A stretch of DNA of 64,000 bases from positions 372,001-436,000 of the forward strand of contig WLWY01000005.1 in the NCBI GenBank assembly GCA_012103325.1, written 5' to 3'. Both the position numbers and the translations under genes were made by a program. The notes beneath the pieces are model-generated. The model was given only the letters and a program-made list of their open reading frames with translations. It did not search any database and was not told the DNA's origin. Source of the DNA: Alphaproteobacteria bacterium. Lineage in GTDB: Bacteria > Pseudomonadota > Alphaproteobacteria > UBA8366 > GCA-2717185. Positions 9,603-57,292 of the stretch are shown in pieces (the first letter of the stretch is position 1; the number at the start of each line of letters is the position of its first letter).

Positions 9603-9634
9603 TACCAAGGGTCACTATCAGCGCTCCTTGGTAT
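9602..9634. repeat. 33-bp imperfect palindrome ATACCAAGG-GTCACTATCAGCGCTCCTTGGTAT, collapsed form of the 57026-57288 element
   Basis: Rightmost 24 nt identical to the right end of the element at 57026-57288; first 9 nt identical to its left tip. Confidence 0.8.
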
Positions 9635-55156: not shown

Positions 55157-55211
55157 TGCTGTCCAGACTAATCGAACCACGGCGCCACCGGTTCGATTAG
55201 TCTGGACAGCA
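55157..55211. repeat. 22-bp perfect inverted repeat, 11-nt loop
   Basis: tgctgtccagactaatcgaacc-acggcgccacc-ggttcgattagtctggacagca. Confidence 0.95.
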
Positions 55212-56954: not shown

Positions 56955-57025
56955 AGGAAGCACTCCCTCCGTTCGAATTGATTTGGCCAATTCGTAACAT
57001 GCGCCGGGAGTTGCGCAAATGCCTG

Positions 57026-57288
57026 ATACCAAGGAGCGCTGATAGTGACCCCTAGAGACGGGTTATCCAGGTTTTCGGCAAGGAGCGCGCGGCGCAGCGA
57101 TGCGGGGTATCGGAAGCCGGGCGCGACGCTGTCCGAAAGCCTGGATAACCCGCCCTTCGGGTCGCGTATGCGGTCCGTCGGAGAGCGTCGGAACGGCTTG
57201 ACGATGCCCCGCATCGACTGCGCCGCCCCTCCTACCCGACGGACCGCATACGCGATCTCTAGGGGTCACTATCAGCGCTCCTTGGTAT
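57026..57288. mobile_element. 263-bp MITE-like structured element with 33-bp perfect terminal inverted repeats
   Basis: ATACCAAGGAGCGCTGATAGTGACCCCTAGAGA (57026-57058) and its exact reverse complement (57256-57288); several further internal inverted repeats. Confidence 0.85.
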
Positions 57289-57292
57289 GAGT

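Follow-up and report, generated by a model that had tools for sequence, protein, structure and literature searches.

The element lay at positions 57026–57288 of the window, that is, the whole 64,000-nt stretch of DNA analysed. Its neighbours were a glyoxalase-domain gene and a universal-stress-protein gene (usp), both on the minus strand, and the usp stop codon was 2 bp from the right target duplication. The element was 263 bp long, with a GC content of 64% (61% for the window), and was delimited by 33-bp perfect palindromic ends, exactly as an earlier note on this DNA had described. These ends were made up of the terminal inverted repeat (TIR) and one base of each target duplication. The flanks of 28 copies, together with the single TGA at an empty site in the congener G004, placed the TGA target-site duplications at 57024–57026 and 57288–57290. 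The TIRs proper spanned 57027–57058 on the plus strand (TACCAAGGAGCGCTGATAGTGACCCCTAGAGA) and, on the same basis, 57256–57287 on the minus strand. Double changes were seen in 7 of the 33 terminal pairs among the 28 copies in the same genome.

Both strands of the element folded into a three-way junction (a T-shape) composed of the terminal stem and two long hairpins. Hairpin A (57059–57152, plus strand) consisted of a basal stem of about 18 bp and an apical unit, and hairpin B (57162–57255, minus strand) was its inverted homologue; both were defined by the fold and by double changes among copies. Each contained a copy of a conserved 62-nt hairpin unit, at 57075–57136 on the plus strand (covariance model R1, 72.4 bits, E 1.3e-16) and at 57178–57239 on the minus strand (same model, 72.1 bits, E 1.5e-16). 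A small linker hairpin (CCCTTCGGG, 57153–57161) sat at the junction, with double changes in 1 of its 3 pairs. The minimum free energy was −196.6 kcal/mol for the plus strand (z −16.1) and −190.3 kcal/mol for the minus strand (z −15.8), and an equally stable fold was found in 0 of 200 shuffles of each strand. The folding check proposed in the earlier note thus gave a z of about −16 on both strands.

The three internal pairs listed there as nested inverted repeats were all present, at 57059–57071/57140–57152, at 57164–57181/57236–57253 and, imperfectly matched, at 57092–57107/57207–57223. The third was not a nested stem. It reflected the likeness of the two hairpin tips, the hairpins being inverted copies of one unit.

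The element has no coding role. In agreement with the previous remark that it held no convincing ORF, the frames crossing it looked like chance, with a coding signal that carried no conviction. The focal region gave no Rfam match at E ≤ 1, eight loci of other subfamilies gave none above the gathering score, and no tRNA-like match was found for the element. No outward sigma-70 promoter was found at the ends of the focal element in a promoter scan. In copies with a TAA duplication (e.g. L007), the TIR and duplication at the right end read TTGGTATAAT, an outward-facing string resembling an extended −10 promoter; the focal copy, with its TGA duplication, had no string of this type. A separate intergenic hairpin was noticed at 55157–55211 of the window, a near-perfect inverted repeat (ctgtccagactaatcgaacc / ggttcgattagtctggacag) with no second copy among the loci fetched from the same genome.

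The genome (6.3 Mb in 24 contigs) contained 28 full-length copies of the element, 86–100% identical, and about ten truncated ones. Most copies were flanked as TAA/TACC...GGTA/TAA, or by TTA or TGA on both sides. This indicated that the TIR proper begins at TACC (TACCAAGG... in the focal type) and that the duplication is 3 bp long, of the form TNA. Identical 3-mer duplications were present in 18 of the 28 copies, and all were TAA, TTA or TGA. In G004 the flanks were joined by a single TGA at the same position, as expected of an empty site. Occurrence within the genus was patchy, with 102 units in G000 and 0 in G003. Multiple copies, duplications, the empty site and patchy presence together point to transposition: the element is a mobile, MITE-like non-autonomous transposable element, below 500 bp, non-coding, bounded by TIRs and dispersed in many copies with target-site duplication. 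The orthologous site in G003 (L347) read CTCCCTTTTGGTAT, possibly a TIR-end remnant of an older insertion there.

A 31-bp remnant of a second copy was found in the window at 9603–9633 (minus strand), with TTA on either side; it contained 23 nt of one TIR and 8 nt of the other. About eight loci held such 31–32 bp remnants, TACCAAGGAGCGCTGATAGTGAC joined to CCTTGGTA (the window copy and L070, L072, L074, L076, L077, L079, L083 and L084). They always joined about 23 nt of one TIR to 8–9 nt of the other and mostly had target duplications, a recurrent deletion footprint with a microhomology of just 2 bp.

The hairpin pair was not confined to this TIR. A covariance-model scan found 109 units in the same genome, and these formed elements of at least six TIR types: TACCAAGG (28 full copies), GGAGCCTGTCCGAGTAATGC (about 14 copies), GTGGACACAATC (4 copies), and GTGTCCTGG, GTACACTCTATC and AGAGCCTGCCTCG (one copy each). 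Further types occurred in other genomes. Over all fetched loci, 152 pairs of units were inverted and 2 were on the same strand. TIRs were detectable in 120 pairs, and lengths were mostly 260–273 bp. The geometry was constant across unrelated TIRs, with a TIR of about 33 bp, a gap of 42–43 bp between units and a total of about 263 bp; several TIR types thus enclose one core. The core tracked the TIR type between genomes in 35 of 35 TACCA elements, as expected from old subfamilies, and frequent swapping of TIRs was rejected on this ground. The two same-strand pairs (L170:4166-4330 and L225:2956-3120) had one hairpin arm inverted relative to the usual mirror arrangement, recalling arm flips by recombination across a stem. 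Elements of 317–334 bp (L164, L182, L204, L213 and L222) carried an extra GC-rich hairpin of about 55–60 bp nested in one hairpin arm.

The family was present in 20 of 44 genomes of the order and, by a strict pattern, in 8 of 385 genomes of the class. The matches listed included MAGs labelled Rhodospirillaceae and Kiloniellaceae, Pelagibius and Hwanghaeella; no Caulobacter was among those listed. Three odd matches outside Proteobacteria, with different spacing, were probably due to chance. No match was found in viral contigs, plasmids or phages, and an origin from a phage or plasmid was rejected on that account. No published account of the family was found in the open-access literature searched.

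Nearly all copies were intergenic. When empty sites were rebuilt in silico for 43 copies from the same genome, a called ORF spanned the junction by more than 30 bp in 3; genes were called with a basic codon-usage method that had been trained on the window, and the insertion-site figures are accordingly approximate. In 10 of the 28 copies the duplicated triplet coincided exactly with the stop codon of the adjoining gene; among the window's TWA sites at which insertion would be non-disruptive, this was so for 6.9% (p = 1e-5, ignoring relatedness of the copies). Neighbours were co-directional for 71 of 108 elements, and several copies lay between the stop and start of co-directional genes. Only a weak bias in placement relative to transcription was seen, at 23:9 for the tight co-directional sites and 35:23 for all sites.

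The 3-bp TNA rule is that of the IS1031 group of the IS5 family (PMC12016507), and the TAA, TTA and TGA duplications of the focal type agree with it. The non-TACCA types were mostly flanked by TA or CTAG, assigned by eye; several of them, with an apparent 2-bp TA duplication, likewise resembled the IS427 group of the same family, whose members make 2-bp repeats (PMC3281130), and the TA and CTAG flanks are compatible with such repeats. By eye, the GGAGCCTGTCC TIR also resembled a cited IS1031-group end, GAACCTGTCT (PMC12016507, PMC3281130). In contrast to both groups, the genomes tested yielded no transposase with these TIRs. The element inserts in the manner of the IS1031 group; since the searches brought up no matching transposase, we do not assign it to that group.

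The earlier note had suggested searching for a full-length element that combines this TIR with a transposase; none was found. No transposase with the TIRs of the element was found in the genome, either among the TIR matches or among PF01609, PF13340, PF13586 and PF13359 genes, and this is the main gap in the mechanism. Two multi-copy PF01609 insertion sequences were rejected as parents, as their TIRs (...CCCACTGTTGTCCGGTTTA and GGAGACCTCTGCGAAACGGG) were unrelated. No PF13340 transposase had a matching TIR, PF13586 and PF13359 gave nothing matching, and the IS5-like transposases of relatives had no matching TIR pair. The parent may have been lost or may belong to another family. It would be recognizable as a transposase gene with inverted TACCAAGGNNCGNTGAT flanks at TNA sites. 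One of the rejected elements, a 329-aa DDE_Tnp_1 insertion sequence with the TIR GGAGACCTCTGCGAAACGGG, had 29 copies in the same genome (L097–L114), mostly flanked by palindromes of the CCCCCTTGAGG/CCTCAAGGGGG type; it seems to target another repeat.

The consensus of the hairpin unit was CGG.TAGGAG-(8-bp variable helix)-..GGCGATG.GGGGCATCG..AAG-(helix')-CGACGC..TCCG. Among 37 divergent units, the 8-bp helix varied at every position yet remained paired. In these units 129 double-change cells were counted across families, against 43 in shuffles, and 90% of cells were paired, against 27–41% when the pairing was slid. The full-length copies of the same genome gave 109 against 39 in shuffles, with 96% paired against 32–41%, and they covaried in the junction hairpin as well as in the terminal stem and the two long hairpins. 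Conservation without pairing was seen across families in AGGAG/GACGC and in the NNAAG side. Between AGGA and GACG, both unpaired, tandem G·A pairs could form. The earlier note had set a single copy with unconserved arms against its own proposal. Instead there were 28 full copies, with compensatory change in the arms. Its statement that the symmetry goes beyond a simple MITE was also upheld, as elements with unrelated TIRs have in common two inverted hairpins built on one conserved, covarying unit.

The wobble pairs were distributed asymmetrically between strands. In the unit's own orientation, the apical helix showed G·T and A·C in a ratio of 91:5 among 86 units at 90% redundancy (p = 1.6e-21) and 18:1 at 75% redundancy (p = 8e-5), relatedness being ignored in both. 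The 18-bp basal stems showed no clear asymmetry (32 against 21–25); some other process may maintain their pairing. Both marks of a structured RNA or single-stranded DNA were present, namely compensatory changes and a tolerance of wobbles specific to one strand. Since G·T on one strand becomes A·C on the opposite strand, strand-neutral processes are not expected to give such a bias, and the simplest explanation of these sequence patterns is selection on the folded single strand in the unit's own orientation. The structured nucleic acid proposed earlier was thus favored by the strand-asymmetric wobbles. The other proposal, a plain double-stranded array of transposase or recombinase binding sites, became less likely, because it gives no reason for covarying stems around conserved unpaired loop bases.

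The element shares with the prokaryotic MITEs (Correia/NEMIS, ERIC, RUP, QMITE and Chunjie; PMC10969869) a size below 500 bp, TIRs, a short target duplication, many intergenic copies, stable stem-loops and the lack of a transposase gene. It differs from them in being GC-rich (64%), in its fixed three-arm architecture, in having no parent insertion sequence found, and in the inverted covarying unit pair across subfamilies with unrelated TIRs. The Caulobacter CIR elements named in the same source are likewise alphaproteobacterial and strictly intergenic; they were compared with the element by description.

We interpreted the element as a MITE moved in trans by an IS5-type transposase, whose hairpin-pair cargo works in the folded state, most likely in a transcript. 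We consider this reading somewhat better than even (about 0.55). An IS5-type DDE transposase (IS1031-like, with a TNA target) would recognize the 32-bp TIRs in trans and insert the element at TWA/TNA sites, where it would be tolerated mainly between genes, in many cases precisely at a stop codon. The inverted pair of hairpin units that forms its cargo would work as a folded single strand. The hairpins would most likely act in the transcript of the host operon, with a putative role in shielding, processing or translation insulation, and such action may lower the cost of insertion. Whichever strand is read, the mirror symmetry of the pair places one unit in the correct orientation close to the 5' side of that strand, and the function would thus be independent of orientation. 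The transposase class, the movement in trans and the RNA-level role are what we infer here. The family as a whole is best read as a new MITE superfamily, mobilized in trans by several IS5-like transposases.

G·T wobbles are among the best-tolerated mismatches in single-stranded DNA as well, and RNA is for that reason not proven as the acting form. The hairpins of the same MITE might function in single-stranded DNA form, exposed during lagging-strand replication or by cruciform extrusion. There they would be recognized by a protein of the host or of the transposition machinery that stimulates copying or strand transfer, with RNA irrelevant. The constant geometry through unrelated TIRs would be easier to explain by such a nucleoprotein complex, the mirror arrangement would serve either replication strand, and the near-perfect basal stems without clear wobble bias are as expected for DNA. 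On the other hand, the wobble share of the apical helix was high (91 of about 680 cells), as in RNA, and no protein candidate is known. We regard this alternative as possible but tentative. Doubtful, and already disfavored, is an ordinary MITE with a functionless interior, in which complementarity is a by-product of template-switch repair between inverted repeats and the core is common to all subfamilies through descent. Template switching is known to make compensatory changes in inverted repeats, and common descent is clear from the co-segregation of cores with TIR type (35/35 TACCA elements). However, it should erase internal loops, whereas AGGAG/GACGC and the NNAAG side stayed unpaired, and the 91:5 ratio in the unit's own orientation is not expected from it.

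An inverted pair of extragenic hairpins in an alphaproteobacterium also recalls the GTAG- and CGTC-tagged REPs, their HH dimers and REPINs, which a Y1 (RAYT) transposase mobilizes through their hairpins (PMC3733652, PMC3116915). CGTC-type REPs are common in alphaproteobacteria, and the unit carries GACG, the reverse complement of CGTC, in a loop. REPs are palindromes of 20–40 bp with an unpaired end tag (GTAG in REPINs) and no TIRs, whereas the unit is about 62 nt long, has three helices and internal loops, and lies inside long TIRs with a 3-bp target duplication. The terminal unpaired CGTC tag, A-T first stem pairs, 4–5 nt loop and CCA tail of CGTC-REPs (PMC3733652) were not seen in it. Y1_Tnp was found in just 7 of 16 carrier genomes, the 9 without a match including the single-contig G039, and no unit was near any Y1 gene. 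These observations largely refuted the RAYT/REPIN reading, which we consider highly improbable.

A further, quite unlikely reading is that the machinery or an RNA step reads the T-shape and hairpin unit and not the TIR sequence, so that TIRs and stems drift while pairing holds. If true, this would be a structure-addressed mobile element, recognized by shape and loop bases; to our knowledge, no bacterial element with TIRs and target duplications has been so described.

The sequence between the ends of a MITE is usually regarded as junk. In this family it is the interior that is conserved and the ends that vary, with dozens of copies per genome and carriers in several families of marine Alphaproteobacteria. 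The covariance model is a ready detector for this repeat family, which has no Rfam match. A conserved interior of this type allows a test of whether selection can act on a nucleic-acid structure carried by a non-autonomous element, and of whether RNA folding, together with insertion at stop codons, lets such an element live inside operons.
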